Below are positions 20,160 through 61,175 of a DNA stretch of 64,000 bases, in pieces. Made by a program: the position numbers and the translations under genes. Position 1 is the first letter of the stretch. Each line of letters begins with the position of its first letter. Location of the stretch: positions 12,028,001-12,092,000 of the forward strand of contig OX387193.1 in NCBI GenBank assembly GCA_947561395.2, read 5' to 3'. Source of the DNA: Buxus sempervirens (lineage: Eukaryota; Streptophyta; Magnoliopsida; Buxales; Buxaceae). A model generated the notes under the pieces. The model searched no databases, had not been told where the DNA came from, and saw only the letters and a program-made list of their open reading frames with translations.

Positions 20160-20427
20160 AACCGTACTGAGTATGCGGTTTTTTATAATCTTGGTCTCAA
20201 CCGCTCTGTATGTGCGGTTGCAACCGCACACACAGCACGGTTGATATCCATGCTTGTTGCGCTGGCGGCCACGTGGCTTCGCGAAGCTTCGGCCGTTGAG
20301 CCGCGTGGACAGCAATCAATTAAAGCATAACTGAATTGAACCGCCCTGTATGTGCGGTTTGGTTAAATTTGTATATGAACCGCACTTTAAGTAATGGTTG
20401 TGTAGAAACCGCACTGAGTATACGGTT
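20160..20427. promoter_or_regulatory. Six AACCG-N11-CGGTT inverted repeats in U3
   Basis: Sites at 20160-20180, 20199-20219, 20222-20242, 20339-20359, 20378-20399 (N12, degenerate) and 20407-20427. All but one have exactly 21 nt between the outer edges. The spacer is itself partly symmetric and often reads NCTGNRTATG. The 3' LTR has the matching set at 51367, 51406, 51429, 51546, 51585 and 51614. They lie 200-470 bp upstream of the LTR TATA box, where enhancers of plant LTRs usually are. Confidence 0.85.
20269..20308. promoter_or_regulatory. G-box hairpin in U3
   Basis: CCACGTGGCT (20269-20278) faces AGCCGCGTGG (20299-20308). In the 3' LTR the second arm is AGCCACGTGG (51506-51515), making a perfect 10-bp inverted repeat with a CACGTG G-box in each arm. 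The third Tat copy keeps the same layout at about 57325-57361. G-boxes are bound by plant bZIP/bHLH factors, so light or stress control is plausible but not shown. Confidence 0.6.
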
Positions 20428-20628
20428 TTGGTTGTTTCGGGGATTTGCGAAATGGCTCGATCTCTGAGCCTTATTTACGCATATTACCTCTCTCTTGGGG
20501 ACTTGAACTCCCCATTTCACCCTCCGAAACTTGCTGAATTATTCCAATTCAAGCCTTGGAGGAGAATTGGAATAATCTAGAAGGCCTTTTTGGCCTACCC
20601 TTGGGACTCTTCTACCCTTGACTTGGCC

Positions 20629-20744
20629 TATAAATAGAGAGGTCCTCCTCTTGCAAATGGCTGACAATCTGAAGCTTAGAAGCTCTGCAAGAAGAAGGAG
20701 AACCTCTGCTGGATTGTCTACTCAACTGTTCAAGCTACTAAGGT
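20629..20744 (+). promoter_or_regulatory. LTR core promoter and R/U5 splice donor
   Basis: TATAAATA at 20629-20636 in the context GGCCTATAAATAGAGAG is a strong plant TATA box. 114 bp downstream, CTACTAAG|GTAAAG (GT at 20743) is a good donor. The inner LTR has the same pair (TATAAATA 47041, CAG|GTAAG at 47156) with the same spacing. In the outer 3' LTR the donor is weakened (AAG|GT to AA|AGT). Confidence 0.75.
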
Positions 20745-22360
20745 AAAGCCCATTTGAGTTATTGCTTCCTTTTTAAGTTCTAGCAATCTCTCATCTTCTA
20801 CCTTTCTGTAGTGTAAGGCCTTGGTGTTGTTTGTAACCCCAAACCCCTTCTAAAGTACCTGGGAATCCTCTCTAGCCGTAAAATGTGAAGAGAGAGCCTG
20901 GGGAAAAGGAAGGTGGAATGGATCCTCTAGGTTTAGAAGCCTCAAATGATGAAAAGCATGCTATATGGTTATTTTGAACCCATGAATGCTTCTCTGATTT
21001 ATTTTGTATTTGGAGAAGATGTGAATCCATGCTCTCAATAGCCATGGATTCCAACTTTCTCATAGGAATGTGATTTTCCACATCTTCACACCCACTTGTC
21101 ACTGTTTTTGCAAAGATGGGCTAGATCTTGGATTTCCGTGTAAATATGGAAAATCTGAGATCATTTCCGTGTAAATATGGAAAATCTGTTTTTGTTGATT
21201 TTTGAGGTTTTGGTCGAATCCACATGCACTGGTTTCCATGTTTTCTCTTCAAAAACTTCAAAATAGGACAGATCTGTGGCCTGTCTTGGAATGCTTATAA
21301 CTTCATCCTCCGGATGAATTTTTGAGTGATTCCAAAGACATGTGATAGATTGGAAAGCCTACTTAATATCTGAAAATTTTCGTCCACTTCCATGTAGCCA
21401 ATTTTTGACACCATCTCTTCAAAGTTTGTATGTCAGTTCAGCCCAGATTGCTGAACTTGCTACTTCGATGGTGCACTATTTGGTCAGTTTTAATCCGTTT
21501 CATGTGATTCCAGTTTCTGAGTTTTCTTTGAGAAGTCTATTTTCATTTCCAACTGGTTTCGGCAGATTTCAATCTGTTTGGTGCCTTGGGTGCTCAATGG
21601 ACTCAGAGGTGCTCGCTGGCATAGTCCAGAGCTCATCTGTGGTCTTCTAGGCCTGTTCAAGAGAGCACACAAGTCACATCCGGATAGAGATTGGTGTGAG
21701 GTTTTTTTCTTTGGAAAGATGGCACCACATACTTCCTCCATACCAATTTTCATGGATTTTTATTGAGCCAAACTTCACGAATAGAGCTTTGAAAATGCCT
21801 ACTTAACACTTTTTCTGAGTTATAACAGCAGATTTCAGATGTGGATTTCTCTCTAGTTTTGAATCGGATCGAGCTGAATTTTTTACTGTATATTCTACTA
21901 TATACCAGTTTTCAAATGGCTTTGGTTTCATTTGATTTGGATTTAAATTGAATGAGTTATGGCTTATCAAAGCTGTCAAGCTCTTTTGACCTAATTTCTC
22001 CATATTTGCCTTAGCTTGATTTTCCTCATTTTTACTTTGATTTCATTTCACTCATGAAGTTTTAGAAGTGATGAATCCACAAAGAGAGCCTAAGTTCATT
22101 AGACTTCTCATGTGGAATGATCACATACATGGTGCTTGTTGTAAGCACCCTTTTGCCCATTTTGTTAGAAAAACAATTCTTAGTATGAGCAAGCATATGG
22201 TAACCGTCTTAGACGGATGAGTGGGGGTGCCTAACACCTTCCCCCGCTCATAAATAATTCCCCGTACCCAATCTCTGGATTTTCCTTGTATTAGAGCTAC
22301 TTTGGCTCTATTTGACATCTATGAACCTTTTGGTGTCCATTCACACCTTAAAATGGATGG

Positions 22361-22370
22361 TGGCGACTCT
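22361..22370 (+). promoter_or_regulatory. Second copy of the PBS start inside U5
   Basis: TGGCGACTCT at 22361-22370 is identical to the first 10 nt of the PBS (22440). It recurs in every Tat LTR here: 48857-48866 (inner), 53576-53585 (3' LTR), 59441-59450 (third copy, last base C) and, as TGGTGACTCC, on the minus strand at 61220-61211. It could pair with the 3' end of the primer tRNA. Confidence 0.6.
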
Positions 22371-22439
22371 TAACATTTTATCGATCCCCGCGTGACGATA
22401 TCGGAAGTCATCAGAGATGACGAATCCATGTCTCACAAC

Positions 22440-24034: not shown

Positions 24035-24121
24035 AACCGTCCTGAGTATGCGGTTGTCTGCATTTTCGATGCAACCGCATGTATCATACGGTTTGAGCCA
24101 AACCGTCCTGAATGTACAGTT
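24035..24121. promoter_or_regulatory. Three 21-nt inverted repeats in the leader
   Basis: AACCG-N11-CGGTT at 24035-24055 and 24073-24093, and a variant with CAGTT at 24101-24121. The third Tat copy has the first of these at the equivalent place (61149-61169) before it is truncated. Confidence 0.8.
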
Positions 24122-24852
24122 TTAAGCCGAAATCCCATTCTAGCCTTGCTAATTAAACATTTCGGGGTCCTTTTATCCCTAAGCCATATAAGCAAGTGGG
24201 CAGGTGTGCTAAATAAGATAAATGGCATATAAACCATTCCAAATACACCCAAATCAAGAGATTAAGGTCATTTTTAACATTTTCACCTAAATTGAACAAA
24301 TCAACTCAACTCAAAGGTGAAAATGATAAAATAAAAGTTGGCTCAAACCAAAAAACAGGTCAAGCACCTCAAATAGGGGGTTAGGTCCACATTGGGCTCT
24401 TTTTGTCCAATTTGAACACTTAACCCATCTTAAGTGAAGTAAATGATTAAAAGAAAATTGGTTCAAATAACCAACCTAATCATGCTTCAACCTCAAGAAT
24501 TGAACTTGGAAATCACAATAAGCTTCCAAAGCATGTTTTAAGCCTAAAGTGGGATCTAAACCAAGAGTAAAAGGAAAAGAAGCTCAACTCTTTTGAAATG
24601 GAACAAATTCCAACCAAAAATAAGAAATCTTTAATCACAAAGTGTTCAAACTTTTAAGATTTCAACTCATTGGGTCACTTGGAAACCTTTGAATTCCAAG
24701 CAAGTGATCATTTAAAGATCCAATGAAAGAAAATTTCAAATAAACCACCACCTTAAAGGCAAATTGAGTCTCTTTTTAACTCAAAACACTTAAGGCAGGA
24801 AATCAAAAATTTTTTAGGCATCTGAAGGCCTTGGAATTTCAGAAAATCAAGT

Positions 24853-25490
24853 CATAGGATCCCTGGAAGCCTGAAATTCCAGACTTTTTCAAAATCTTCA
24901 TAGGCCTTCTAAAGCCTGAATTTAGAAACTCATAGGATCCCTGGAAGCCTGAAATTCCAGACTTTTTCAAAATCTTCATAGGCCTTCTAAAGCCTGAATT
25001 TAGAAACTCATAGGATCCCTGGAAATCTGAAATTCCAGACTTTTTCAAAATCTTCATAGGCCTTCTAAAGCCTGAATTTAGAAACTCATAGGATCCCTGG
25101 AAGCCTGAAATTCTAGACTTTTTCAAAATCTTCATAGGCCTTCTAAAGCCTGAATTTAGAAACTCATAGGATCCCTGGAAGCCTGAAATTCCAGACTTTT
25201 TCAAAATCTTCATAGGCCTTCTAAAGCCTGAATTTAGAAGCTCATAGGACCCCTGGAAGCCTGAAATTCCAGACTTTTTCAAAATCTTCATAGGCCTTCT
25301 AAAGCCTGAATTTAGAAACTCATAGGACCCCTGGAAGCCTGAAATTCCAGACTTTTTCAAAATCATCATAGGCCTTCTAAAGCCTGAATTTAGAAACTCA
25401 TAGGATCCCTGGAAGCCTGAAATTCCAGACTTTTTCAAAATCTTCATAGGCCTTCTAAAGCCTGAATTTAGAAAATCATAGGCCCCTGAA
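24853..25490. repeat. 78-bp minisatellite, about 8 copies
   Basis: The unit is made of two related halves: a 32-bp half (CATAGGCCTTCTAAAGCCTG...) and a 46-bp half (CATAGGATCCCTGGAAGCCTG...). So it is an older 2-unit duplication. The copies are over 95 % alike by eye. Because 78 is divisible by 3, the minus strand stays open for 202 codons of a 26-residue repeat. I regard that as a by-product, since the array lies in the predicted leader intron. Degenerate half-units continue to about 25570. Confidence 0.92.
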
Positions 25491-25814
25491 AGCCTGCGTA
25501 ATTTCGGGAGGTTGTGGAAGCCTTAATTCCAAAGCATAAGCCCTTGGAAGCTTGTGTAATTCCAAGTATCGAGTTTGTCTAAGGTTTTTTACTTTGGACA
25601 TCTCATTTCTGTGGGACATGTTGGAGGCCCTAGAATACTCCAACAAAATTTCTGAGGTTTGATCTTTTTCGTATCAATCACTTCGTCTTAATAAGGTTAT
25701 TTTAACCATAAATAAAAAAATAAAAAAATATGGATACAAAGAAAACCCCAAACTCATGTTCACCAAGCCTACATGCATGCATGCATAGGTGTCTAAAATT
25801 GATTTAGGGGGGTA

Positions 25815-25851: not shown

Positions 25852-25912
25852 GTACTAAGTTCTTACTGCAACCATTGCTCCCCGACGTTCTCAGAGATTA
25901 AAAGCTGCCACC

Positions 25913-27375
25913 ATGAACCCTACTGAAGAACAATCTACTGTTTCGGCTGAGGCCTTTGCTCAACTGCAAGAGCAAGTGGCAGGGATGACCAAACTATTGG
26001 AAAATTTGCTGGCCAACCAAGCCGCTCAGGCTCAGGTGCAGGCGCAGCAGGCACAGGCTCAGGTTCACCAAGCCTCATCATCCCACAATGCACCACCACA
26101 AGCTCCACCCCAGACTGAACTTCCACCACCAGTCCAACCTATCCCACCTCAACCTGAACTCTCTCAGCCAAACCCCGAGCCTATCCTGATCCGGGAGGAG
26201 GAATCTCAATGTGATAGGGAAAAGGAGAAAGAGAAGGAGAGACTGAGGGTAGAGGTTGAAAGAAAATTTTTGGACAAGCTGGAGTCCATTCAAGAGGAAC
26301 TGAAAGAAGTGAGGGGGATCAACACGTTGGGAGGTACCAACTTTCAAGATCTCTGCTTGTACCCCGACGCATGCTTACCGGCCAAATTTAAGTGCCCGGA
26401 CTTTGAGAAGTATGACGGCACAGGGTGCCCAATGAGCCATCTGAAGCTCTACTGCGGGGCATTATGCCAGTTCGGCCGGGATGACGGCATTTTGATCCAA
26501 CTGTTCCAGAGAAGCCTGACAGGGGCAGCTTTGAGGTGGTTCGCAACAGTGGACCACGGCAGAATCAGAAGGTGGAAAGATCTGGCTGACGCTTTCCTAG
26601 CCCAATACAGATTCAATGCTGACATCGTGCCAGATAGGTATGATATGATGAAGATGAACAAGGGAAGAGAAGAGACAGTCAGGCAATATGCCAAAAGGTG
26701 GAGGGAAGCCGCCTCTCAAGTTAGGCCTCCCATGATGGAACCAGAAATGGTTACCACCTTCATTGGCACACTAGGGCAGCCATTTTACAATCACTTGGTG
26801 GGTCAGATTACCACTAGTTTTGCCGCTCTAGTGCAAGTTGCAGACCGGATCGAGGATGGAATCAGATCCGGGCGAATTTATGACCACACTGCCTCGGCTC
26901 GTCAGCAGGAGCCCACTTCTGATCCTTTTGCCCAGAAGCAGAAAAATGGGGCAAGAAGGAGTGGAGGAAAGAAAGAAGGGGAAGTAAACATGGTACAACC
27001 CCAACCACCAAAAACCCCATCCAGATCAATATTGCTGCACCTCCACCCAGTCCAGTGCAGCCACAATCGACCTATCAAAACCCTCTCAACATTAATGTTC
27101 CTCAAGCAGCAATGCCCAACCAAAAAAGGGTATTCTCTAAAGAGGAGAGAGACGCTTGGATGGCGTCCAGAAGGAGCAGGGTCCTTTCCCCTCTTCCTGT
27201 GACTCCATCCCAGCTATTGCCATCTTTGTTAAACGCGGGGTATGTCACCCTGAAAGAACCAAATCCGAATGCTTCAAAGGGAAAGAATTTCGATCCCTCC
27301 ACCACCTGTGAATACCATATGGGTGCACCAGGACACCCTACAGACAGGTGTTGGCCATTAAAACATGCCATCTAG
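25913..27375 (+). pseudogene. gag: Gag of the outer Tat element (frameshift and stop)
   Basis: The capsid/nucleocapsid precursor that packages element RNA. From ATG 25913 there is a Gln-rich N-terminal helix (MTKLLENLLANQAAQAQVQ) and a Pro-rich linker. An acidic/basic coil (REKEKEKERLRVEVERKF) follows, then the retrotransposon gag domain at about residues 150-325 (CPMSHLKLYCGALC, FQRSLTGAALRWF, RYDMMKMNKGREETVRQYAKRW, FIGTLGQPFYNHLVG). At about 27015, in an A5/C4 context, the frame shifts. The rest, with a knuckle-like C-x2-H-x5-H-x4-C (CEYHMGAPGHPTDRC), continues in another frame and ends at TAG 27373-27375, which looks like a former CAG. The element therefore cannot make an intact Gag from this copy unless the indel is a sequencing error. 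Confidence 0.9.
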
Positions 27376-30064
27376 GATTTGATCGATCAGGGAACCCTGT
27401 TGTTTAACACGGCTGCACCCTCTCCCGCCAGGACTGACATTGGTCAGAATCCTCTGCTCCAGCATAATGGGGCCGGTCCTTCCAATTTTGTAGGGACCGT
27501 CTCTTCTAGATCTAGGACGTTTGATCCCTCGCAATTAATTGCACCAATAGGGACGTCCGTTAGGGTCTATTTTGACCAGGAAGAGATAGGGGAACAAATC
27601 AATGTCATTTCTGGAAATAATGGAAATGGCAAGACTGCAGAGGACATTAATGCCTCTTTAAACCGGGCCGCTTCTCTCATGGCCCAGCTTAATGTAACCA
27701 AACCCCCCCTCATTATTAATTGCAACCAGGCTGTTGCTTCCCCACCTACTCCATCATCCAAACCATCTTTGGTCATTTATTATGACCCCACCACCGCATC
27801 AATTACATCTGTTTCCTCTCAGACCTTAAAATCCTCTCAACCCAAGGAACCCAGGCAATCTTCGCCTCTGGTTATTGAGGTGCCTTCTTCTAACCTTATT
27901 CCCACATCAACTCCTGCACCAAGGTCTCATCTCCAGCCCTTGGTATTTAACGTTCCTAAACCCTCCTATTCAGAAACTTCTGTACCTTGGAATTACAGCG
28001 AGGGTTATACAACCACTATCCCAGTGGCCAAGAACCAGGGTCAGGAGGAGGTAAACCTCATGACAAGATCAGGGAGGTGTGTGGAAGGAAAAGAACAAGA
28101 AAAGAAAGAGGCAGAGCAAGTCTAGAAAGGAAAGGCCAAGATAGGGGAGGACGCCCCCCAGGTCGACAGTAAGGAGGCAGAGGACCTCCTAAAGATACTG
28201 AAAAAGAGTGAATTCAATATTGTCGACCAACTAACCAAGGTCCCTGCCCAGATATCAATACTGGGATTATTGCTTAATTCAGAAAAGCATAGGGACTCAT
28301 TAATGAAAGTACTCCAGAGCGCCCACGTGCCCAAAACAATTGAGCCAGACCAGCTCGGCATGATGATCGGCCAGATTTTATCTCCCAATGTAATAAGTTT
28401 TTCAGAAAGCGAGATAAGCCCTGGTGGATGTTATCACATGGACCCTTTGCACATCACTGTGCTCTGTAAGGGTAGCATGATAGCCAGGGTCCTAATTGAC
28501 AATGGGTCAGCCTTAAACGTCTGTCCCCTGGTAACATTTGTGCGGCTTGGTCTGGACCAATCCAAGATAAAACAGAACGGGAGGATTGTGAGAGCTTTTG
28601 ATAGCTCCAAAACACACTCCCTGGGAGAGATTGAACTGCCGATTACCATCGGACCGAATATCTTTAATATCACATTCGAAGTGATAGATATTCATGCTGC
28701 CTTCAATCTACTTCTGGGAAGGCCGTGGATCCACTCAGCTAGGGCTATACCCTCCACTCTTCATCAAAGAGTAAAATTTATAAGAGGCCAAAGGGTGATA
28801 ACGGTCCTAGCCGAGAGCCTAGTCCCTCCCGTCATATCACCGGACGTACCTTTTATTAATGTGGAATTAACTGCAGACAAAATTGCCTTTCACTCTTTTC
28901 AGTTCGAAACAGTCAACTTCATACCTGGGGGGTGTCTAAAAAAGAATGAGAAGTTGACATGCGCCAATAAGATGGTGGAGAAGGTCTTAAAAGATTGCAA
29001 TTTCCACCCAGGGAAGGGGTTGGGTATTAACCTGCAAGGAAGGGTGACACCCATAGAGGCACAAAGGCTGGTCCCACGAGTAGGACTAGGGATTAAAATG
29101 AGAAGATGGAAGAGGGGACCACAGAAAGAAAATGGTAATGAGAGGGAAAAGAATCAAGGAAAGTTCCCTCATTTAAGGGAAACTTTCCCGAAGCCCTCTC
29201 ATACCATTCAATTGGCTCCTCCTACAGATTCCGCCAAGCCTCCGTATTTTAACGACAACCCTTTTAGAAAACCTTTTACCTCAACCCTTCAACCTTTTAT
29301 CCCCCTTTCCCCCACTTTGGCGCCCAAAGCCACGGGTGAGCCTGAGCCACTGCCACAAGAGCAGCAGGATTTCACGGAAGAGATAGGGGCATTCTTTGCA
29401 ATGGCGGAAGATGAAGGAAGAAAGAAAGCAGAAAAAGAGGCTCCTTTTATTGATTGGGCCTCAATCAAGATTCCTGATGAAGTCACCTCTGAACTCAGCC
29501 CCGAAGCAGAAAAGGGTAGTTTTTCAAATCCGGTAATGATGGTATCGGATCAAGAGTTTGAGGAAGAACAGGTTTGCACTATACCACCTGTTCCAGAGGG
29601 CTTTGTACTGAAAAATTGGGAAGAGATCCCTTTGACATTTGAGGCTGCATATGGTTGGCAATCAGCTGCGGCCTCCAAAAAAAAACTCCATTAGTGGATT
29701 GCCCTTTTCCTGAAGGTTTTAATGAACCTTCATCTTCAGGAAAAGCCTTTTTAGAAGGTTCTCAAAAAACCCAAAAAGATTTTTCAATTTTTTCTAGAAA
29801 ATCTAAAGCTTTCAAAATGGTCCAGACTGCTTATGAGCCATATATACAGACTGAGCTAGAGCAAGTTGAATACGACTTCGACCTCGAGCTCGACTTCGAC
29901 CTAATGGGGATCGAAGAGGAGATCGAGGCCGAAGACGATGACCTTCCAAGAGAAATATCATATCAATTGGAACGTCACGAAAAGGGTATTCAACCTAATA
30001 TTGAAGAAACCATTTCCATAAACCTGGGAACCGAAGAGGACCCAAAAATTGTAAAGATTGGTGC
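27376..30064 (+). pseudogene. pol: Spacer, aspartic protease and G-patch-like region
   Basis: After a low-complexity Ser/Pro/Thr spacer, a second TAG occurs at 28123-28125, in frame. The protease follows (about 28270-28800): active-site LIDNGSALNVCP and a C-terminal NLLLGRPWIHSARAIPS. The string GKGLGINLQGRVTPIE at about 29012-29060 is G-patch-like, a feature of Tat and Ogre proteins between PR and RT. A frameshift lies in an A9 tract at about 29677-29685. An acidic linker (YDFDLELDFDLMGIEEE) then leads to another frameshift at about 30060 before RT. Protease residues are intact but are separated from Gag and RT by these lesions. Confidence 0.88.
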
Positions 30065-31970
30065 ATGCTTGTTGATATGCAACAGAGGGAAATGTCCCAA
30101 TTCTTGGCCGATTACAAAGACGTGTTCGCATGGTCTTATCGGGATATGCCAGGATTGGATACAGACATGGTTGTATACAGGCTGCCGATCCTGCCAGGAG
30201 TAAAGCCTATTAAGCAGAAATTGAGAAGGTTGAAACCAGAGTGGACTTTAAAAGTCAAGGATGAAGTGGTGAAACAGTTTCAAGCCGGGTTTTTGGCAGT
30301 ATCCACATACCCTGATTGGCTAGCTAATATAGTCCCGGTTCCAAAGAAGGATGGAAAAGTCAGGATGTGTGTGGATTACAGAGACTTGAATAAGGCGAGC
30401 CCGAAGGATGATTTTCCATTGCCACACATCGACATCTTGGTTGATAATACGGCAGTGCACAGCTTGTTCTCTTTTATGGACGGCTTTTCTGGATATAACC
30501 AAATCAAAATGGCAAAGGAGGATCAAGAGAAAACCGCTTTTATCACTCCTTGGGGAACCTTTCACTACACAGTCATGCCTTTTGGATTGAAGAATGCCGG
30601 GGCAACATATCAGCGAGCCATGACGGCCCTTTTCCATGATATGATCCACAAAGAAATGGAGGTCTATGTGGATGATATGATCGCCAAATCATGTGAAGAG
30701 GAAGACCACTTGATCAATCTAAAGAGGGTATTTGACCGTCTAAGGAAGTACAGCTTAAGGCTTAATCCAGCAAAGTGTGTCTTTGGAGCCACATCAGGGA
30801 AATTATTAGGATTCATTGTAAGCAGAAGAGGGATTGAGATAGACCCGTCTAAAGCCAAGGCAATCATTGAGATGCCATCTCCTAAGACTGAAAAAGAAGT
30901 TAGGGGCTTTCTGGGAAGAATTTAGTATATTAGCCGGTTCATAGCACAGCTCACTGCTATTTGCGAGCCGATCTTTAAGCTTCTAAGGAAGAATAACCCA
31001 ACTATATGGAATGAGGATTGCCAGCAAGCATTCGACAAAATAAAGGATTATTTGTTAAATCCTCCTGTTCCAGTACCGCCAACTCCAGGAAAACCATTGA
31101 TTCTGTATCTATCAGTTTTAGAAACATCAATGGGATGTGTATTGGGGCAGCATGATGAAACAGGCAGAAAAGAAAAGGCTATCTACTATTTGAGCAAGAA
31201 GTTTACAAATTATGAGACGAGATATTCGCCTTTGGAAAAGACTTGTTGCGCTTTGGTCTGGGCAACTCAGAGGCTTAGGCACTATTTCTTAAGCTATTCA
31301 ACTTTGTTGATTTCCAGGATGGATCCGTTGAAATATCTGTTCGAAAAGCCGGCTTTAACTGGTAGAACAGCGAAGTGGCAGCTTTTGCTTTCAGAATTCG
31401 ACCTGACATATGTCACTCAGAAAGCAATTAAAGGTCAGGCAATTGCTGATCATCTAGCTGAGCATCCATTACCAGATTATCAACCTCTTAAGACGAATTT
31501 CCCTGATGAGGCTATCTTATTTGCTGAAGAGGAAGAAAGTGAAGACTCCTGGCAGATGTTCTTTGATGGGGCTGCAAATATGAATGGAAATGGGATCGGC
31601 GCAGTATTAGTAAAGCCAGATGGTTCACATATCCCAATCGCAGTGAAATTGAGGTTTCAGTGCACGAACAACATAGCAGAGTATGAGGCATGTATAATCG
31701 GATTACAGGCTGCTCTAGATCATGATGTTCAAGAACTTGACGTATATGGAGATTCGAGTCTTATCATCTTCCAAACAACTGGGGAATGGAAAACCAAAGA
31801 TCATAAATTGATCCCATATCACCAATATTTGGAAGAAATGAGTACCAAATTTACTCGAATTTCCTTTAGCTATATGCCAAGGGCTAAGAATCAGTTTGCG
31901 GACGCCTTGGCGACATTGGCCTCAATGGTCAGTATTCCAGAAGGGGTAGACATACAACCGCTTGAAATTG
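30065..31970 (+). pseudogene. pol: Reverse transcriptase with two RNase H domains
   Basis: RT fingers/palm: KIKQKLRR-type start (GVKPIKQKLRRLKPEW), DGKVRMCVDYRDLNKAS, FSFMDGFSGYNQI, TPWGTFHYTVMPFGLKNAG and catalytic YVDD (in EVYVDDMIAKS, about 30660). TAG at 30923-30925 interrupts the frame at the thumb. Then come a connection/first RNase H (LILYLSVLETSMGCVLGQHD ... YSPLEKTCCALVWA) and a second, archaeal-type RNase H (MFFDGAANMNGNG, NIAEYEACIIGLQAAL, DVYGDSSLII, FADALATLAS) with the D-E-D-D residues in place. The dual RNase H arrangement is diagnostic of the Tat lineage. Confidence 0.93.
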
Positions 31971-33279
31971 AAGTCAGAGACGAGCCGGCTTACTGTCTTG
32001 TTGTAGAAGGAGCGCAAGAAACAGAAATACCATGGTTCCAGGATATCAAGAATTTCTTGGATAATCGAAATTTTCCAAAAAGCGCTAGTCCCACTGAAAA
32101 AAGAACAATACAGAGGTTAGTAGGACAGTTCCTTCTAAGTGGTGGGCAGTTATACAAGAGATCTTACAATAATGTTCTACTCAGATGCGTCACCAAGGTT
32201 GAAGCAGAAAGGTTGATTGAAACAGTGCACGGGGGAGTCTGTGGGCCGCACATGAATGGACACATGTTCGCAAGGAAAATATTGCGATTGGGATATTATT
32301 GGTCTACAATGGAGCACGATTGTTGCCTACATGTTAAGAGATACCATTTGTGCCAAGTATACGCTGACAATAAGCATGCACCACCAAGTGAGCTGCATAG
32401 CATGACCTCTCCATGGCCTTTCTCTATGTGGGGTATTGATGTCATTGGGATGATTTCTCCTAAAGCGTCAAATGGATACCGGTTCATTCTAGTGGTAATT
32501 GATTATTTCACAAAGTGGGTTGAAGCTGCTTCGTATGCAAATATCACAGGAAACCATGTTCTTAAGTTTCTAAAGCACAACATAATTTGTCGCTATGGGT
32601 TGCAAAAGCCATAGTTTCAGATAATGCTTCAAATATTAAGAACAAGGATATGAAGAAGATGTGTGAGCAGTTTCAGATAACTCATCACAAGTCAGCCCCT
32701 TACAGGCCAAAGATGAATGGAGCAGTAGAAGCGGCAAATAAGAACATAAAGAAAATAATCCAGAAGATGGTAGTGAGCTATAGAGATTGGCACGAGATGT
32801 TACCATTTGCTCTCCATGCTTACAAAACCTCGATCCGAACTTCTACTGGGGCAACGCCGTATTCCTTGGTTTATGGAACAGAGGCAGTCTTACCTGTTGA
32901 AGTAGAAATCCCTTCATTAAGAGTGCTTATGGAAACAGAGCTTGAAGAGGCTGAATGGGTTCAGTCTAGATATGAGCAACTTAATTTGATAGAAGAAAAG
33001 CGGTTGAATGCGCTTTGCCACGGTCAACTGTATCAGAGGAGAATGGCCAGAGCCTACAACAAGAAAGTGAAGCCCAGAGCTTTCCAAGTGGGTAATTTAG
33101 TCTTAAAGAAGATATTACCATTTCTGGAAGACCCTCGCGGAAAGTTTAAGCCAAATTGGGAGGGACCTTATGTAGTGAAGAAGGTCTTGTCAGGAGGCGC
33201 TCTTATCTTGACAGAAATGGACGGGGCAGATTTTCCTGAGCCAATCAACTCCGATGCGGTCAAACAATATTTCCCTTGA
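31971..33279 (+). pseudogene. pol: Integrase
   Basis: The zinc-binding region (about 32220-32355) has the His residues, but the first Cys of the final C-x2-C is Tyr (RYHLCQ, codon 32342-32344). The catalytic core shows D in MWGIDVIG (about 32438), D in VSDNASN (about 32620) and E in MNGAVEAANKNIKK (about 32727). A one-base loss near 32606 puts the second half in another frame (from GYGLQK to AIVSDN). The C-terminal part (FQVGNLVLKKILPFLEDPRG, NWEGPYVVKKVLSGGALIL) is normal and ends at 33279. No chromodomain is seen, as expected for Tat. The Cys change and the frameshift each disable it. Confidence 0.92.
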
Positions 33280-35989: not shown

Positions 35990-36095
35990 TAATGGGCAAA
36001 AGTGGATTAAAGGCAGCTAGGAGAGAGAAAATCGCCGAAACAGGGGGTTTCTGACCTAAGCAATACGTCAAAATGACGTCCTGCCCGCAATTCGC

Positions 36096-38768: not shown

Positions 38769-38771
38769 AAA

Positions 38772-46743: not shown

Positions 46744-46883
46744 TATCCGGATACTCAGTCCGGATACAAGTACTCCTTCCTGTATCCGAATACTCATACC
46801 GGATACATGTGAGCCTTAGTGTATCCGGTACCATGTATCGGATACCTTAAAGCCCTTTGTTATCCGGCCTGACATACCGGATA
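46744..46883. promoter_or_regulatory. Four TATCCGG-N9-CCGGATA repeats in inner U3
   Basis: Sites at 46744-46766, 46783-46805 (TATCCGA), 46822-46844 (right arm TCGGATA) and 46861-46883. All are 23 nt, with starts spaced exactly 39 bp apart (46744, 46783, 46822, 46861). The regular step keeps all four sites in the same register. Confidence 0.9.
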
Positions 46884-47040
46884 CCTTAAGTTTGCTCAAA
46901 ATTAGGGTTTTCCGAGAGCTTTTCACTTTTACCATCATGTCCTTCATTAAATGAGGGGAAATCGCGGAAATGACCTTAGGGTTAAGGTTGGAGGGGTTCT
47001 AGACATTAAGTTGTGTCTACCAATGACCTTAGTCTTTGCC

Positions 47041-47157
47041 TATAAATAGGAGCCTCCTCCTTGAGCAAATGGCACTCAACTCTTGTTTTGAATTCTCGCA
47101 AAGAAGAACTCCAAGAGAAGAAGAAAACCGCTGCGGAATCGCCTCCAGAACTCAGGT
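47041..47157 (+). promoter_or_regulatory. Inner LTR TATA box and splice donor
   Basis: TATAAATA at 47041-47048, then CTCAG|GTAAG with GT at 47156, 115 bp downstream. Same design as in the outer LTR. Confidence 0.75.
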
Positions 47158-49389: not shown

Positions 49390-50913
49390 CTATAGAACCA
49401 ATTACAGGGAGAAATTCATTATGCTTCTTCGTTTAAATAAAACCATGATATTTTCTTACATGTTTTCTTTAATTTTTCTTTTCTCTAAATTAATCTAATT
49501 CGTTTGGTTTGCAGAAAAATGGAGATCGCAGAAGACACTGCAAAAATTCTCAACCAAACCATGATCTGGCTATTCTACTCTTCAAAATTTTTGTTCTTTT
49601 AGAAGTTTTATTGTCATTTTTATTTTATTATTATTCATTTAGTTGTATGTAAGAATTATATGCAAGAATATGAAAGTTCCTGTATACTCTTCTTATACGA
49701 TAAAATGAAAAGAAAGGGGGCATTAAGGGTTAGCTTTTCTGGGAGATCTGTATCCCGGTTTGACATGTTAAGAGGCCTAACCATCTAATCCTATTTTCAG
49801 GCTATCCAAGGCAGGTTCAAGTTAACAAGGAAAATACCCGGCAAAGCCAGGCAAATTGTTCAAGCCTAGCTAAAATTATCAAGTCAAGCCCAAGCAAGCA
49901 TAGCAAATCAGCATGCCACAAGGAAAGATCAGATTTACAGCATGCCATGTCATTCTAGACAGCAAGAATCAACAAATGAAAAAATCAAGACATTCAAAAG
50001 GATAAATAGTATGTTGATTGAAATCAGATCACCCAAGGATCACACCAAGTAGGCAAAAACATGCACTCCATAACAGGGTGAGCATGCCAAGTGTTATACT
50101 GCCGCAGAAAAGAAATCCTCATATGGAGCAAATTTTTTAAGGTTCGAAATTGGATAAACAAAAGTCATGAGTGATTCCAAAAAAGAGCTTGGCATTGTAA
50201 AATAAGGATTCAGAAAAAAATTTTGAAGCAATGCAATCCATGGCCAAGTACAGATCGACACAGACAGTGGCCACATACAAGATTGGGATTTTTCTATCCC
50301 ATTAACAACAAGGCGACCAAGGCAGTAAATCAATGGCAAAGGTCGTGCATGAAGGCTTCAAATCATAGAATCAGGCTGCCACATTTCTGGTGCAAGGATT
50401 ACAAAAGAAAAGGTATCCGACCACTTACCTGTTATTGGCCGAAATCAAAAGTCTGCAGGAAAAATGGAGCCTTGGCCTCACCGGAGCTCCAGAAGAGACT
50501 GGCTGGACGATTGGCGAACTCAGAAAATCCTCGATCGATGAGGAGGCTGGGGCTGAACCGTGGTAAGATGGCAAGAGCTCGCCGGAGTCCGCCAACACAA
50601 GAGGTTGTTGATCACGGCTCACAACCGAAGTCGCCGGAGAGAATAGAGTTCGCCGGAAAAGCAGAAGCCGCCGGAGAGCAGAGAGTCTTCGTCGGAGGGG
50701 AAAGGAAGAAGACCGGAGGAAAACCACGGTCGCAAGAGAGTTCAGGAAGTCAAGGGTTTCGCGAGCGAAATGAAGCCAGGCGCGGTCGCGGCCTCGGTTA
50801 TATGAAACCTAGAAAACCGCATATACAGAGCGGTTGGTATTAATATTGTTGAAAACTGCACATACAGCACGGTTGAAATTGAAAATGCTAAAAACTGCAT
50901 GTTCAGTACGGTT
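49390..50913 (-). promoter_or_regulatory. Outer A2 leader intron, 5' UTR exon, TATA and motifs
   Basis: On the minus strand: three 21-nt inverted repeats (50893-50913, 50854-50874, 50815-50835), then CATATAACC (50804-50796), a TATA-like box 11 bp from the last repeat. A UTR exon of about 370 nt follows, to a strong donor CAG|GTAAGT (exon end 50429). A 1.04-kb intron ends at TTCTATAG directly before ATG 49389. From 49450 to 50400 I see no frame. Confidence 0.7.
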
Positions 50914-51255: not shown

Positions 51256-53652
51256 TGTCGACACCCCAAATTGCACTTCCATAAGAGAATACCTAAGAAG
51301 AGCTTTAAATGTCATATTTGAGCATTAATATATGTCAAGCATTCAAAAACAATCAAAATTGGTGCCAACCGTACTAAGTATGCGGTTTTTTATAATCTTG
51401 GTCTCAACCGCTCTGTATGTGCGGTTGCAACCGCACACAAAGCATGGTTGATATCCATGCTTGTTGCGCTGGCGGCCACGTGGCTTCGCCAAGCTTCGGC
51501 CGTTGAGCCACGTGGACAGCAATCAATTAAAGCATAACTGAATTGAACCGCCCTGTATGTGCGGTTTGGTTAAATTTGTATATGAACCGCACTTTAAGTA
51601 ACGGTTGTGTAGAAACCGCACTGAGTATACGGTTTTGGCTGTTTCGGGGATTTGCGAAATGGCTCGATCTCTGAGCCTTATTTACGCATATTACCTCTCT
51701 CTTGGGGACTTGAACTCCCCATTTCACCCTCCGAAACTTGCTGAATTACTCCAATTCAAGCCTTGGAGGAGAATTGGAATAATCTAGAAGGCCTTTTTGG
51801 CCTACCCTTGGGACTCTTCTACCCTTGACTTGGCCTATAAATAGAGAGGTCCTCCTCTTGAAAATGGCTGACAATCTGAAGCTTAGAAGCTCTGCAAGAA
51901 GAAGGAGAACCTCTGCTGGATTGTCTACTCAACTGTTCAAGCTACTAAAGTAAAGCCCATTTGAGTTATTGCTTCCTTTTTAAGTTCTAGCAATCTCTCA
52001 TCTTCTACCTTTCTGTAGTGTAAGGCCTTGGTGTTGTTTGTAGCCCCAAACCCCTTCTAAAGTACCTGGGAATCCTCTCTAGCCGTAAAACGTGAAGAGA
52101 GAGCCTGGAGAAAAGGAAGGTGGAATGGATCCTCTAAGTTTAGAAGCCTCAAATGATGAAAAGCATGCTATATGGTTATTTTGAACCCATGAATGCTTCT
52201 CTGATTAATTTTGTATTTGGAGAAGATGTGAATCCATGCTCTCAATAGCCATGGATTCCAACTTTCTCATAGGAATGTGATTTTACACATCTTCACACCC
52301 ACTTGTCACTGTTTTTGCAAAGATGGGCTAGATCTTGGATTTCCGTGTAAATATGGAAAATCTGAGATCATTTCCGTGTAAATATGGAAAATCTGTTTTT
52401 GTTGATTTTTGAGGTTTTGGTCGAATCCACATGCACACATGCACTGGTTTCCATGTTTTCTCTTCAAAAACTTCAAAATAGGACAGATCTGTGGCCTGTC
52501 TTGGAATGCTTATAACTTCATCCTCCGGATGAATTTTTGAGTGATTCCAAAGACATGTGATAGATTGGAAAGCCTACTTAATATCTAAAAATTTTCGTCC
52601 ACTTCCATGTAGCCAATTTTTGACACCATCTCTTCAAAGTTTGTAGGTCAGTTCAGCCCATATTGCTGAACTTGCTACTTCGATGGTGCACTATTTGCTC
52701 AGTTTTAATCCGTTTCATGTGATTCCAGTTTCTTAGTTTTCTTTGATAAGTCTATTTTCATTTCCAACTGGTTTCGGCAGATTTCAATCTGTTTGGTGCC
52801 TTGGGTGCTCAATGGACTCAGAGGTGCTCGCTGGCATAGTCGAGAGCTCATCTGTCGTCTTCTAGGCCTGTTCAAGAGAGCACACAAGTCACATCCGGAT
52901 AGAGATTGGTGTGAGGTTTTTTTCTTTGGAAAGATGGCACCACATAATTCCTCCATACCAATTTTCATGGATTTTTATTGAGCCAAACTCCACGAATAGA
53001 GCTTTGAAAATGCCTACTTAACACTTTTTCTGAGTTATAACAGCAGATTTCAGATGTGGATTTCTCTCTAGTTTTGAATCGGATTGAGCTGAATTTTTTA
53101 CTGTATATTCTACTATATACCAGTTTTCAAATGGCTTTGGTTTCATTTGATTTGGATTTAAATTGAATGAGTTATGGCTTATCAAAGCTGTCAAGCTCTT
53201 TTGACCTAATTTCTCCATATTTGCCTTAGCTTGATTTTCCTCATTTTTACTTTGATTTCATTTCACTCATGAAGTTTTAGAAGTGATGAATCCACAAAGA
53301 GAGCCTAAGTTCATTAGACTTCTCATGTGGAATGATCACATACATGGTGCTTGTTGTAAGCACCCTTTTGCCCATTTTGTTAGAAAAACAATTCTTAGTA
53401 TGAGCAAGCATATGGTAACCGTCTTAGACGGATGAGTGGGGGTGCCTAACACCTTCCCCCGCTCATAAATAATTCCCCGTACCCAATCTCTGGATTTTCC
53501 TTGTATTAGAGCTACTTTGGCTCTATTTGACATCTATGAACCTTTTGGTGTCCATTCACACCTTAAAATGGATGGTGGCGACTCTTAACATTTTATCGAT
53601 CCCCGCGTGACGATATCGGAAGTCATCAGAGATGACGAATCCATGTCTCACA
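51256..53652 (+). repeat. 3' LTR of outer Tat element
   Basis: Starts TGTCGACACC (5' copy TGTAGACACC). 2397 bp, nearly all differences being single substitutions plus an ACACATGC-type 8-bp duplication near 52435. It carries the six 21-nt motifs (51367-51634), a perfect G-box hairpin and TATA (51836). The last 600 bp is virtually identical to the 5' copy. Confidence 0.95.
51367..51634. promoter_or_regulatory. Six 21-nt inverted repeats in 3' LTR U3
   Basis: Same layout as 20160-20427. Point changes between the LTRs fall in the spacer or outer arm (for example GAGT to AAGT in site 1 and a CGG to TGG change in site 3). Site 5 has its CGGTT arm intact here but not in the 5' LTR. Confidence 0.85.
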
Positions 53653-55384
53653 AAATGACGATAGAGATCCTCTTTCAATGCCCTTCTCAAATGAGAGAAG
53701 CTCCATTTGTCTTACCAGCTCCTCTATAAGAAAAAAAAAATCACTTGGAAATGTCGAACCGATCACGTGCAAAGCTGAGGCAAGCGTTCTTCAAGGGGTT
53801 CATATCTTTGGGATTGGTACCACCGTACCAGTGGTGGTGGCATTGTCGCTTCCATCAACCCCACCATCAAATACCCCAACCATTGCAGAAGCAAGTAACC
53901 TTTGTTCTTCAATCAATCAAGAAGGGTCATCCGCTCCAGCCATGGGTGATTATCAACGATTGTTGCTTCGTTGTTGTCGGAGAGATTATCGACTGCAGCT
54001 GACCAGTTGTAACAGTGAAACTTTATTCCCGGAAAAAGAGAGTCTTTGGGGAAGCACAGAGAAAAGAAGCTTGGAGAGGTAAGAGTGGCTGTTGAGGAGA
54101 GTACTGGAGATAAGAGGATGCGGTTGCAGCGACGATCCTTTGGATATTGAAGATGGAGGCTCTGAAGAGCAAGCACACCGAAGCTGCCATGAAGGCAGAC
54201 AATAGGATAGGAGGAAGGGGGAAGGTGTTTGCAAGGTTATGTCACCATGGAAGTAGTTTCGAAGCAACAATCAGAGGCTCCAAAGAAGCATTTTTCCATT
54301 TCTTTTTTTTTTTTTTTTTTGGACTTGAGAGAGTCGGCAGTGGCGAGTCTGGCAACTAGCTGTTGGCAATCGGTCTAGTCGGCATTCTCACACGGCAATC
54401 GGCGGCAGTCGGCAGGAGCTATTCGTTTGGAGAGGGAGAGAAAGGGGCAAGGGTGTTGAACTAGGGTTTAGGGTTTGGGAGATTGGGATAGATTTGGTTG
54501 ATTTAAGAGAGGGGTTAATTGGAATATGTCTAAAATTTAAAGGTGAATTTATATATATATATATATATTAAAATATGTATTTTTTGGTTTGGTTCGATTT
54601 AGAGAAATATATGATTTCGGTTCGGTTCGGTTTAACCGATCATACAATCCAAAACCAAACCGATCTAATTCGATTTAGAGATTTTAAGACCAAAACCGAA
54701 CCAAACATATAGGAAACCGAACCGAACTCAGTTCGGGTCGGTTTGGGTTCGGTTTTAACCGGACTGAGTTGCAGCCCTACTGTTAACATAACAAAATAGA
54801 GAGTTTAAGTTATTTGGATACATCTATCCCAATGAATTCGATTACTTTGCATATACACAGGATCTCACATAAAGGTGTGATTTTTATAATGGCATAGACA
54901 AAATTTAATGACCAACCCATCATGCTGACATAACAAAATGGATTTCATCATCATCATGGTCAACCACACAAATACATTTTCAAGATTTTGGCCAAAGAAC
55001 TACTATAACAGCCATGAAAATTGGTTTTCTTATTTTATTTTATTATTTAAGTCCACAAAACTAATTTGAAAAAGAATGAGGTTACCAAAAGTATGGATGT
55101 TCATTGGGCAATCTCCAGCCAGGCTGCAAGAGCTGCCAAGGAAGGTTGTGCTTCTTGAACAATGGCCAAAGTTGTTGATTAAGAACCCTGAGCAGACCCA
55201 ACCTACCTATTTAAATATAACTCATGATTTTTTAAGAGCTAATAGTGAAATAAATTGTAGAATACAAAGCTATGTTGCATGATTTTGAAATGAATCACCA
55301 TTCACTAGTACTCACAAGGAATCTGCTAGCTCCCATACAGAAAAGGGATGACAAAATGAGCACATAACCTAAATATATATACAC

Positions 55385-55386
<2 letters not shown>

Positions 55387-55427: not shown

Positions 55428-55430
<3 letters not shown>

Positions 55431-57172: not shown

Positions 57173-57180
57173 TATTGCCT

Positions 57181-60100
57181 GTGCAGATCAGGCTCAAAAC
57201 CAACCAAAAGGGTGCTAACCGTACTATACCTGCGGTTTTTGGTAATTTGGTCTCAACCGCCCTGTGTATACGGTTGTGACCGTGCACATAGCACGATTGA
57301 AGTTCATGCTTCTTGCATGAGCTGCCACGTGGCTTCTAGAAGCTTAGGCCGTTAGGCCACGTCAGTAGCAATCATTAGGAGCGTAACTGAATTTGAATTG
57401 TTCTGTGTGTGTGGTTGGTGCAATTTGTATTGCAATCGTGTATTTGGGACAGTTGGTGCAAAACCGTACTAAGTATACGGTTTTGCTCGTTTCTTGCATT
57501 TGCGAAAAGGCTCGATTTCTGAGCCTTATTTACGCGTATTACCTCTCTCTTGGGGACTTGAACTCCCTATTTTACCCTCCGAAACTTGTAGATTTACACC
57601 AATTCATGCCGTTAATTTGAATTGGAATAATCTAGAAGGATTTATGGGCATACCCTTGGGACTTTTCTACCCTTGGCCATGCCTATAAATAGAGGGGTCC
57701 TTCTCTTGCAAATGGCTGATAATTTGAAGCATTGAAGCTTTGCAAGAAGAAGAGAAACTTTGCTGGATTGTCTACTCAAGGCTTAAGTTACTAAGATAAG
57801 GATCTAGCTACTTTTTCAGCTTCTCTTTACATTTCAACTCTCATCTTCTGCCTTTCTGTAGTGTAAGACCACTTTGTGTTTGTTTGTAGCCCCAAACCTC
57901 TTCCAAAGTACCTAGGAATCCTCTCTAGCCGTAAAACGTGAAGAGAGAGCTTGGGGAAACGGATATTGGCATGGATCCTCTAGGCCTATAACCTACATAT
58001 GATGAAGAGCATATATTGGTTATTTTGCACCTATGATTGCTTCTTTGAATTAGTTGTGTTTTGAATGTGGAGAAAACATCATGATCAATGCTCTCTATAG
58101 CATTTGATCTTTGTTTTCTCGTAGAAATAATGATTTCCACTGTTTCACACACTTTTTCACTGTTTTCATCAAATGGGCTAGATCTTGGATTCTCCATGTT
58201 TAATATGGAAAATCTGAGATCCCAGGCCTTAGAATGAATTTCTAGGACTTCATGAGAATTGTTTTCGTGATTTCAAGTTATTTTGGTCGAATTCACTTGT
58301 ACTGGTTTTCTTTTTTTATTCAAGGTTTTTAAAAAACAGGACAGCATCTGTAGCCTGTCTTAGAATACTCATAACTTCATCCTCCGGATGAATTTTTGAG
58401 TGATTCTAAAGGCATATGATAGATGAGACTATCTAGTTTATATCTGGAAATTTTCATCAATTGTTATGAAGCCAATTTTTGATACCATTTGTTCAAAATC
58501 GGCAGGTCAGTTCAGTCCAGATTGCTGAACTTGCCACTTTGATTGAGCACCATTTGCTCATTTTTAATCCGTTTCAAGTGATTTCTATCTCTATGTTTTC
58601 CTTGAAAAGTATATTTTCAAATCCCATTGGTTTCAAGAGCTTTTGCTTTGATTTTTGTCTAGTGTGATTGATTAACTCAGACCTGCTCTGTAGCGGAGTT
58701 CTGTTCATTTGTGATCCTCTAGGCATGTTCGGAGGGTCACCCAAATCACAAATGGATGGAGCTTTGTGTGAGGTCTATTTCATTTGAAAGATGGCACCTC
58801 ATACTTCATCCATGCAAGTTTTCATTGATTTATATGGAGCCAAACTCCACGAATAGAGTTTCAAAAATGCTTACTCGCCGCTTTTTCTGATTTACAACAG
58901 CAAATTCCACTGAGTATTTCTTTTTCATTTTAAATCGGATTGAACTGAAATTTTTTTATTGAGTAATCTACTTCATACCAGCTTTCTAATAGCTTTGGTT
59001 TCATTTGATTTGAGTTTGAATCAAAAGAAATATCAGTGATTAAAGCTTTCAAGCTCTTATGGTTTAATTTGCCCAAATTTGTTTTAGCTTGATTTTCTTC
59101 AATCTTTGCTTTGATTTTTTTATTACTCATGAAGTCCTAGAGGTGATAAACCCATAGAGAGAGTCCAGATTTATTGGACTACTCATATGGAAGAATCAAA
59201 CATATGTTTGTTTATTTTCAAGCATTCTTTGTTTATTTTAGTTAGCAAACAATTCTTTGAGCATGACAAGCATATGGCAACCGTCTTGTACGGATGAGTG
59301 GGGGTGCCTAACACCTTCCCCTGCTCATAACTAATTCCCCTTACCTGATCTTTGGATTTTTCCTTGAATTAGAGCTACTTTAGCTCTATTTGGCATTTTT
59401 ATGATCCTTTTGGTGTCCATTCACACTTTAACTTGAATGGTGGCGACTCCTAACGTTTGTAAACCCCGCGTGATGATATCGGAAGTCATCAAGGTGACAT
59501 TTCCATGTCTCACAACTGGCGACTTCGCTGGGGATATGTGGAATTGAGCCATGTTTTGTTTGCTTGTTTATGTTTTGATTGATTTTATTGATTGTTTGTT
59601 GTTTGTCTCTTTGAAATAAGCATGTTTGGTTTGCGTGTTTCTATTATAGAGAATATGAGACCCATTAAAATATGGCATGTGATGTGTGTATGCTTTGGTT
59701 ATGGTTAGAATCATGCTTAGCAGGGCTTAATTAGTCTTACCATGCTAGGTTGCCATCTCTCCATGATAGCATGCTTTGATTTAGGCTTTGAATGACATGA
59801 GCATGAGATTTGTTTTTTTGGGATGCTTTGAATTTGGCAAAAGCATGCTCAATATGATTGTGTGCTCTTTTGTATAGCATGATATCAAGCTTTCATGTTT
59901 GTATGAAGTTTTATGCGAATGCATGTTTAGAAAGAGCATGCTAGGTGTTTTAAAATTACATTGATGTACTTGTGCTTACTTATCTCATAAATGATCTCTA
60001 TATCATGTCTTGGTGAATGTGGTTGTGTATGCATGGCTACGAAAAAAGAGTGGCAAGGCTGAGACGTTGTGATGAATGTGACCCACTTTTTCAAATGCAC

Positions 60101-61175
60101 TTGTGCACTTTTTTATTTTTTTTACACAGCCTACCTATTACCTATAGGAAGTTGAACAAGAATGTGTGTAGCTTGGCGCATCGAGGTTGTTACTTCGGAA
60201 AGCGAAAGTGAAAACATTCACCTTAGAGTTTTGAGCCAATGATGTGATGACATGGTGGATCTAGAATTCTGGTCATACACTAGACTTGAGCTCTAAGTTG
60301 CCAATAAGCCAAAACCTAAAACCCCCACGCTTGAAGGTGGAGAAACACATTTTTGGCTAAAGTAAACCAAATACGGTGGGGAAAGGGTTTGTAATTGAGG
60401 GAAGGCCGTTTTGCATGGCTTGTATGATCCAAGGTATGATGTAGTCACCATTTTGAAGGTAAATACGAGGTAACAAGGTAATCGCAAGTTCATTTTTTAT
60501 GCTTGCCTTCATACTTTGAAAAGTTAAATTCATGGTGTCCATTTTGTTGGGATTTTGTTTTTCCTATGAAGTTGCTGTATCTTAGGATTGGTGTAGCCCA
60601 TAGGAAGAGTTTTAACTCTTCGTAGATGTCATTCTACCCAAATGCCCATCGGAGGCAACCCAAAGTCCAAATTCTATGCATTGGGTTTCCAATTTTGGTG
60701 GGAGCATATGCCTTCTTTCATGTGAATACCACTAATCCTCTTTTTGCAGGAAAATTGAATGGAAATATCATCCAAGAGGTGCTGGTACGGAGGCAATTTT
60801 TGTAAATAAGATAGGAATTTTTTTTCCTTTTGAAAGCCTAAGAAGGCCTAGTTGTACTTTTGTTTCACGCCTTTGAAGGCAAATTTGTATTTTTTTTTTC
60901 ATTAGTAGGCCTACACTCCTGTTGAAGACATGAGAAGGCTCTTTTCTATACATATTTGTTGTATATTTGCATCAATTGTGCAAGTTACATTCAATACATG
61001 CATCTTTATAAGCAATTGATGTGTCAAATGCCCAATTTGGGGCAGTCCAGAAGCCCCCCAATGGTGAACAATGAGTTTGGACCAGTAATCAAATTAATAA
61101 AATCAATTGGAAAAAGAAAAAAATTGTGAAAATCTGTTTCTGGCTTAAAACCGCTCTGAGTATGCGGTTGCCTGC
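57181..61175 (+). mobile_element. Third Tat copy (outer-like): truncated LTR, PBS and leader
   Basis: 57181-59513 is a diverged LTR of the outer family that lacks the first 110 or so bases. It has 21-nt motifs at 57217-57237, 57255-57275, 57278-57298 (degenerate) and 57462-57482, the G-box region, TATAAATA at 57684, and LTR end TGTCTCACA at 59513. Its R/U5 donor is mutated (AAG|AT). PBS is TGGCGACTTCGCTGGGGA (59516-59533). The leader 59534-61175 is collinear with 22458-24065 and has a motif at 61149-61169. It stops at 61175 where a minus-strand LTR begins, so any gag-pol lies outside the window or is lost. Confidence 0.88.

Follow-up and report, generated by a model that had tools for sequence, protein, structure and literature searches.

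The closest described counterparts of the system considered here are the VANC anti-silencing proteins and motifs of the VANDAL transposons of Arabidopsis (PMC5735166, PMC10398659). For the Tat lineage of long terminal repeat (LTR) retrotransposons, the portions of the literature consulted report a PMD extra open reading frame (ORF) in 57% of Ogre elements (PMC6317226), antisense ORFs of Retand in which a DNA-binding domain is predicted, together with TRP28, which is predicted to bind DNA (PMC11963269), and gene23 of Grande, which has a promoter of its own and a product located in the nucleus (PMC11963269, PMC7264820, PMC6317226). What the conserved antisense extra ORFs do is called unknown in the same portions (PMC7264820, PMC11963269). 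The Arabidopsis PMD proteins MAIN and MAIL1 have been tied, in the part of the report consulted, to the silencing of transposable elements and to 'DOWN', a motif in the promoters of dependent genes (PMC7156037). Here we analyze palindromic sites and antisense genes of Tat elements in a 64,000-nucleotide stretch of contig 19 (the window), and in the 676.5 Mb genome to which it belongs and which, from its element content, we take to be that of a plant.

Two families of elements meet in the window. The outer family carries the palindrome AACCG-N11-CGGTT (AA class) and the inner family TATCCGG-N9-CCGGATA (TAT class), and the common CCG-N11-CGG register of the two motifs, noticed in a preliminary description of this DNA, is exact. 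That description left out the DUF7745/PMD genes encoded by the elements, whose upstream regions hold sites of these classes. We consider it fairly probable (roughly 60%) that the palindromes are binding sites for an element-encoded protein dimer, the most likely candidate being the DUF7745 (PMD-like) protein.

Allowing at most one mismatch, 27 AA and 10 TAT sites were found in the window, in line with the approximately 26 and 10 initially counted; four of the 27 lie outside the outer element, in a remnant at 57194-61175. Exact matches number 23 for the AA pattern (shuffle mean 0.06) and six for the TAT pattern (shuffle mean 0.00). All 23 exact AACCG-Nk-CGGTT occur at k=11, with at most one at each other k from 0 to 38. 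Genome-wide, AACCG-Nk-CGGTT is found 184 times with N10, 19,195 times with N11 and 1,428 times with N12, and these counts include background, since reversed-pattern controls are far from zero (1,467, 1,691 and 1,084, respectively). TATCCGG-Nk-CCGGATA occurs 28,399 times with N9 (reversed control 5) and 14 times with N10 (reversed control 2). Other spacings are thus 13 to about 2,000 times rarer across the genome, contrary to the expectation under which fixed spacing would have had to be abandoned. In the motif-chosen loci (L007-L026, selected from the earliest listed contig 1 hits of the two motifs, so that their spacing counts lean to N11), the generalized palindrome XYCCG-Nk-CGGY'X' was observed 97 times at k=11, and no other k up to 30 gave more than 13. 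The strict length initially asserted is therefore better described as a very tight spacing that is not absolute, as one site of the outer U3 region is of the N12 type.

A third class on the same CCG-N11-CGG core, GCCCGTA-N7-TACGGGC (GC class), was first met in several of the 20 loci picked around motif hits, mostly with 28 nt between successive sites. It occurs 11,266 times in the genome (reversed control 0), which rules out the existence of exactly two classes; the three together account for 58,860 pattern matches, background not subtracted. The flanks, first described as completely different, are family-specific overall, although one inner cluster holds an AACCGG..CCGGTT site (L012, 7811). 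In L014 (5011-5039) and L016 (73-129 and 6042-7209), CCG-N11-CGG appears between flanks that are GA/TC or mixed, with CA..TG as the inner pairs, possibly as a fourth class.

None of the 37 window sites lies in the approximately 15.1 kb of coding sequence (intervals set by hand from the frames). The clusters occupy the LTR U3, the 5' untranslated region (UTR), the post-integrase region, the DNA ahead of the antisense DUF7745 gene, and the interval that separates the PMD gene from the 3' LTR. The outer element and its relative in the window are composed as follows.

20049-53653: outer LTR element, LTRs 98.5% identical (self-BLAST).
20049-22438, plus strand: outer 5' LTR, matching 51256-53653 at 98.5% (self-BLAST), with TG..CA ends as read.
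20160-20427, plus strand: outer U3 cluster, five exact AACCG-N11-CGGTT (20160, 20199, 20222, 20339, 20407).
From 20378: N12-type site within the outer U3 cluster, one arm base altered in the window copy.
20629: TATA-like GCCTATAAATAG in the outer 5' LTR.
From 22440: primer binding site (PBS)-like TGGCGACTCTGCTGGGGA after the outer 5' LTR.
24035-24121, plus strand: outer 5' UTR cluster of three AACCG sites, two exact and one with a mismatch.
25859-33279, plus strand: outer gag, G-patch, reverse transcriptase, RNase H, second RNase H (RVT_3) and integrase-like frames (Pfam).
33825-33912, plus strand: outer post-integrase cluster, three exact AACCG sites.
34336-36016, minus strand: outer antisense DUF7745/PMD-like gene, exon-like frames 35255-36016 and 34336-35247 (Pfam; the second under the cut-off).
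36121-36238, minus strand: four exact AACCG-N11-CGGTT directly upstream of the outer antisense DUF7745 gene.
36470-38774, minus strand: outer antisense PMD gene region, broken at 38774 by the inner fragment.
50815-50913, plus strand: three outer-type sites before the outer 3' LTR, one exact and two with one mismatch, 39 nt apart.
51256-53653, plus strand: outer 3' LTR, U3 sites at 51367-51634.
57194-61175, plus strand: second outer-family LTR and 5' UTR remnant (76.8%), sites at 57217, 57255, 57462 and 61149.

By comparison with L023, the outer sequence ends at 38774 and starts again at about 48950. The intervening DNA belongs to the inner family.

38771-48936, plus strand: inner-family fragment running from the post-integrase region to the end of the 3' LTR and lodged in the outer PMD gene (comparisons with L013 and L023).
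39641-41207, minus strand: inner antisense DUF7745/PMD-like gene, frames 40560-41207 and 39641-40546 (Pfam; the second under the cut-off).
41454, minus strand: TATA-like box of the inner antisense gene, 13 bp beyond the last TATCCGG-type site on the DUF7745 side.
41468-41606, minus strand: four TATCCGG-type sites upstream of inner DUF7745, three exact and one with a mismatch, 38-39 nt apart.
43396-44373, minus strand: inner antisense PMD gene frame (Pfam).
45985-46046, plus strand: pair of TATCCGG-type sites, one of them exact, in the interval from the inner PMD gene to the 3' LTR.
46653-48936, plus strand: inner-family 3' LTR, with homologous sequence in L012, L013, L024, L025 and L026.
46744-46883, plus strand: inner U3 cluster of four TATCCGG-type sites at 39-nt intervals, two of them exact.
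47041: TATA-like GCCTATAAATAG in the inner 3' LTR.

The outer U3 cluster stops about 200 bp, and the inner LTR sites about 160 bp, before the respective TATA-like boxes. Both families possess two antisense genes, one with DUF7745 and PMD and the other with PMD (Pfam). The region 40626-41207 of inner DUF7745 has at least 150 genome matches at 97% identity or more.

The association of each motif class with a DUF7745 lineage was examined in copies chosen by protein match (L028-L030, L032-L051, L060-L079, and L052-L059, the last with the fetched stretch placed at the L028 site distance). Upstream of outer DUF7745 (20 copies, 500 bp each), there are 70 exact AA matches and neither TAT nor GC matches. 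The four-site cluster aligns in all 20 of these other copies, some sites being mismatched, and 83 of the 84 aligned sites, window included, have recognizable arms at 21 nt, one left arm being lost in L039. Upstream of inner DUF7745 (20 copies, 401 bp each), we found 76 sites carrying no more than two mismatches, 65 of them exact TATCCGG, with four sites in 18 copies, three in one and one in one; AA and GC sites are absent. The pattern TCCGG-Nk-CCGGA occurs here 68 times at k=9 and at no other k to 30. TATAAAT stands at the same place in all 20 inner copies, 13 bp past the last site in 19 of them.

The third family was found through a distant, broken DUF7745 in L007. Its gene is an intronless frame of 498 aa, which is open in about 100 (by hand count) of the best 150 of 5,596 candidate matches and is present in three fetched copies, in two of which (L028, L029) a PBS-like sequence on the same strand precedes it. 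We infer that in this family the 5' LTR contains the sites and that the gene follows it as the first sense ORF. Eight stretches of 1.5 kb from this family contain 29 GC sites and no AA or TAT sites, and GCCCGT-Nk-ACGGGC is found 29 times at k=9 and once at k=10. The sites of the sense-ORF family are on the far side of the PBS, in the presumed 5' LTR driving that ORF; for this family, the rule that sites always stand directly upstream of the DUF7745 frame is excluded. As for L020, whose LTR carries a TATCCGG variant, a second TAT-type DUF7745 lineage was considered and rejected: tblastn with third-family DUF7745, the only query, found nothing in the next 3.5 kb, where the frames look gag-like by eye.

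When 161 sites of the motif-chosen survey and the window are split by LTR homology, outer LTRs hold 36 AA and five other sites, inner LTRs 22 TAT and one other, and third-family LTRs 12 GC, three AA and 13 other. Two of the 20 motif-chosen loci (L008, L015) show no resemblance to the window LTRs around their sites; in a repeat common to both, AACCG-N11-CGGTT with pyrimidine-rich spacers occurs at 4832-5113 and 5024, respectively, and may represent a further context or background.

The pattern of conservation distinguishes the arms from spacers and inter-site sequence. Among 11 outer LTRs, in part chosen by motif, pairwise identity is 0.895 in the flank and 0.893 in CCG/CGG, compared with 0.728 in the spacer, 0.763 between sites, 0.657 upstream, 0.838 downstream toward the TATA box and 0.771 in CCG/CGG triplets outside sites. 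Per-site figures that require another intact site again place arms above spacer, except at site 4 (core 0.803, spacer 0.802). Upstream of the outer gene, identity is 0.988 in the flank, 0.949 in the core, 0.893 in the spacer, 0.875 between sites, and 0.834 and 0.879 further upstream; upstream of the inner gene (the window and 18 of the 20 copies, L068 and L073 being left out), the corresponding values are 0.983, 0.961, 0.925, 0.829 and 0.893, with 1.000 at the inner G/C. In 265 arm pairs (five sites in 11 LTRs, counted without two odd-length sites and without the N12 site), 239 are unchanged and 26 have single changes, of which 17 leave a G-T wobble and nine break the pair; double changes number zero.

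Arm conservation and the lack of double changes agree better with a DNA site than with a hairpin, as had been claimed, but the freedom of the spacer was overstated. The spacers do not simply vary: AA and TAT spacers share a CTGAGT-like oriented word at positions 3-8. Orientation-aligned scores per site are 6.4 (57 AA) and 6.1 (41 TAT), against about 1.1-1.5 after within-spacer shuffling, and 9.4 against about 5.2 for GC spacers (n=7). In our reading, the word reflects either shared ancestry of the sites or further contacts.

The DUF7745 gene itself is under purifying selection. Its dN/dS ratio is 0.10 and 0.16 for the two exons between the outer and inner families, 0.14 between the window and L023, and 0.06 between L028 and L029, with 0.02 for the integrase control; synonymous change is saturated for PMD and for the comparison of outer with third-family DUF7745. 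The assignment of the elements to Tat follows from their domain order, in which RT_RNaseH (54-158) and RVT_3 (213-331) of frame 30926-32614 are followed in the next frame by a partial rve match (Pfam, E 4e-4, under the cut-off). A second RNase H, placed after the first and before integrase, is given as a mark of Tat (Ogre/Retand) in the consulted part of a published paper (PMC6317226). An Ogre-type extra ORF is present as well: PMD scores above the cut-off in four of nine scanned antisense frames (35255-36016, 40560-41207, 43396-44373 and 38316-38774). By these features of domain order and extra ORF, the elements qualify as Tat (Ogre/Retand) Ty3/gypsy retrotransposons.

We infer binding and dimerization, and likewise that DUF7745, not the second PMD protein, is what binds and that its effect is to activate or to counter silencing, not to repress. 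The half-site would consist of CCG and a family-specific flank, two half-sites being held at a fixed distance of 14 bp. The protein would bind the site arrays in the U3 of its own LTR and in its own UTRs and, in the two antisense families, also directly upstream of its own gene; it would switch on or un-silence its own family alone and probably control its own level. An element-encoded regulator is suggested because the flank of each family goes with its own DUF7745 gene in the copies examined. Activation or anti-silencing is favored because the LTR sites stand at an enhancer-like distance and VANC provides a precedent; the sites beside the TATA box would suit self-repression as well. The original proposal of a protein-dimer site with a common core and a family-specific flank agrees with the spacing, the specificity and the third class, whereas the dimer is deduced from the form of the site.

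Several observations weigh against a DUF7745 dimer as the binder. Between the last site and the gene, identity (0.956 for outer, 0.955 for inner) is about that of the core (0.949 and 0.961), so conservation is not confined to the arms; with the spacer non-random, shared ancestry may account for some of the uniformity. The outer U3 site from 20378 is of N12 type in eight of the 11 aligned LTRs (rows read by eye), and many of the N12 places listed in the first part of contig 1 resemble it. The protein-chosen copies are closely related (protein identity at least 92% for outer and at least 97% for inner). As many as 69 of the 161 surveyed sites lie in no assignable LTR, some being UTR or gene-upstream sites, so that a scatter of the motifs without regard to Tat elements, envisaged at the outset, is contradicted for the protein-chosen copies and the LTR-assignable sites and not for these. 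L028 has no GC site within about 2.9 kb upstream of the third-family ORF. The inner DUF7745 frame in the window has 215 aa, compared with mostly about 300 or more among the matches listed. A sequence search of PDB gave no relative of third-family DUF7745 or of the inner PMD frame, leaving a DNA-binding fold unsupported, and NCBIfam gave no match for four proteins. In the charged, proline-free C-terminal part, the heptad test is not significant for the outer (p 0.26) and inner (p 0.33) proteins and marginal for the third (p 0.02); a coiled coil was accordingly set aside, and since the test failed in two of three proteins, dimerization lacks independent support.

Host factors, that is, plant transcription factors or repressors that read CCG..CGG half-sites, might instead bind sites that the elements captured or at which they are targeted. 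The sites do look like upstream arrays near TATA boxes, and CGGTT resembles what we take to be a MYB core, but such a core would leave the TATCCGG and GCCCG sites uncovered. Three lineages with three flanks on one rigid core, the flank tracking the element family in the copies examined, are more natural for a co-inherited protein, and we regard host factors as unlikely. Somewhat less likely still is a binder encoded by the second antisense gene (PMD gene, 36470-38774 and 43396-44373): its product has a PMD domain, and sites also occur between this gene and the 3' LTR (45985-46046, 50815-50913), but there are four sites in the clusters ahead of DUF7745 against two and three before PMD, and in the third family it is DUF7745 that forms the first long frame after the PBS, with the sites across that PBS.

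The palindromes could also be a by-product of tandem repetition, a functionless ancestral unit of 39 or 28 nt spread by element copying. The regular distances between successive sites of one class up to 90 nt apart (39 nt in 29 of 30 TAT cases, 28 nt in four of five GC cases) and the word common to the spacers are what such a unit would leave, yet the arms outlast spacer and inter-site sequence in the LTRs and in both promoters, both arms change together between families while the register stays constant, and the clusters shun coding sequence and adjoin promoters, which makes this origin very improbable. It is hardly credible that the sites serve packaging, splicing or termination as RNA hairpins or DNA cruciforms. 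The sites are inverted repeats, and the 17 wobble pairs would preserve a stem, but C-to-T decay of CCG/CGG would yield the same wobble, nine changes break the pair, the spacer length is fixed, and the sites stand in U3 and upstream of antisense genes; with compensatory changes absent from the arm pairs counted, the RNA hairpin was set aside.

Other features accompany the elements. A 78-bp tandem array (24852-25496, 8.3 copies, 97% matches) lies in the outer 5' UTR, and the minus strand is open across it (24839-25522). The post-gag frame 28126-29694 has a G-patch domain. A/G-rich purine tracts occur at 38041-38179, within the outer antisense PMD gene region, and at 46048-46242, just past the inner pre-LTR sites. 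Beside the outer-type remnant, a further remnant (61174-62152) is about 70-82% similar to LTR ends in L009, L010, L014, L016, L017 and L020; G/C-rich tandem repeats of 11 and 22 bp occupy 62502-62684, and a frame at 2824-3309 matches the proteasomal ATPase OB-domain (Pfam).

Rigidly spaced dimer sites arrayed upstream of a regulated promoter are known from papillomavirus E2 (ACCG-N4-CGGT) and from Gal4-type regulators (CGG-N11-CCG), a likeness by description alone. The E2 spacing is N4 and the Gal4 half-sites face the other way, unlike the palindromes here; in the window, Gal4-type CGG-N11-CCG has 10 matches, within the 1-18 at other spacings, and E2-type AACCG-N4-CGGTT has none. No description of the palindromes was found in literature searches covering open-access full text, where queries with the core name returned 'AACCG' in unrelated papers alone, and an open-access literature search on self-regulation gave no match. 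Retand TRP28, Grande gene23 and the Ogre PMD extra ORFs belong to the same lineage as our elements, and the consulted parts of the Tat extra-ORF papers do not describe cognate palindromes, a shared core or family flanks (PMC11963269, PMC7264820, PMC6317226). MAIN and MAIL1, unlike the genes considered here, are host genes, and a palindrome or element cognate is not described in the part of that report consulted (PMC7156037). The sites make the function of the antisense extra ORFs directly testable, through binding of DUF7745 to the palindrome of its own family.

We are evenly divided over the broader reading of these sequences, in which DUF7745/PMD proteins, encoded by retrotransposons, would be sequence-specific dimeric regulators of a new class and would read a universal CCG-N11-CGG frame through a family flank, each giant Tat family thereby activating or un-silencing its own LTRs and regulator gene in private. 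If so, the three classes of sites would offer a naturally diversified protein-DNA recognition code, ready for study. The nearest parallel is VANC/VANDAL, as far as the consulted parts of those papers go. Unlike the elements here, VANDALs are DNA transposons, the arrays of the VANC21 motif YAGTATTAY keep a single orientation and form no fixed-spacing palindrome, and our proteins differ from the VANC type in domain content, Pfam giving DUF7745 and PMD and no DUF1985 at E 0.1 and E 1. In both systems, a protein encoded by the element (here a proposed one) goes with short family-specific motifs that are dense in the non-coding, often tandemly repeated DNA of its own element, and related families have different motifs and private specificity, in our case as judged from sequence alone. 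VANC-like private, sequence-specific control would then have arisen in LTR retrotransposons as well, with a rigid dimer site.

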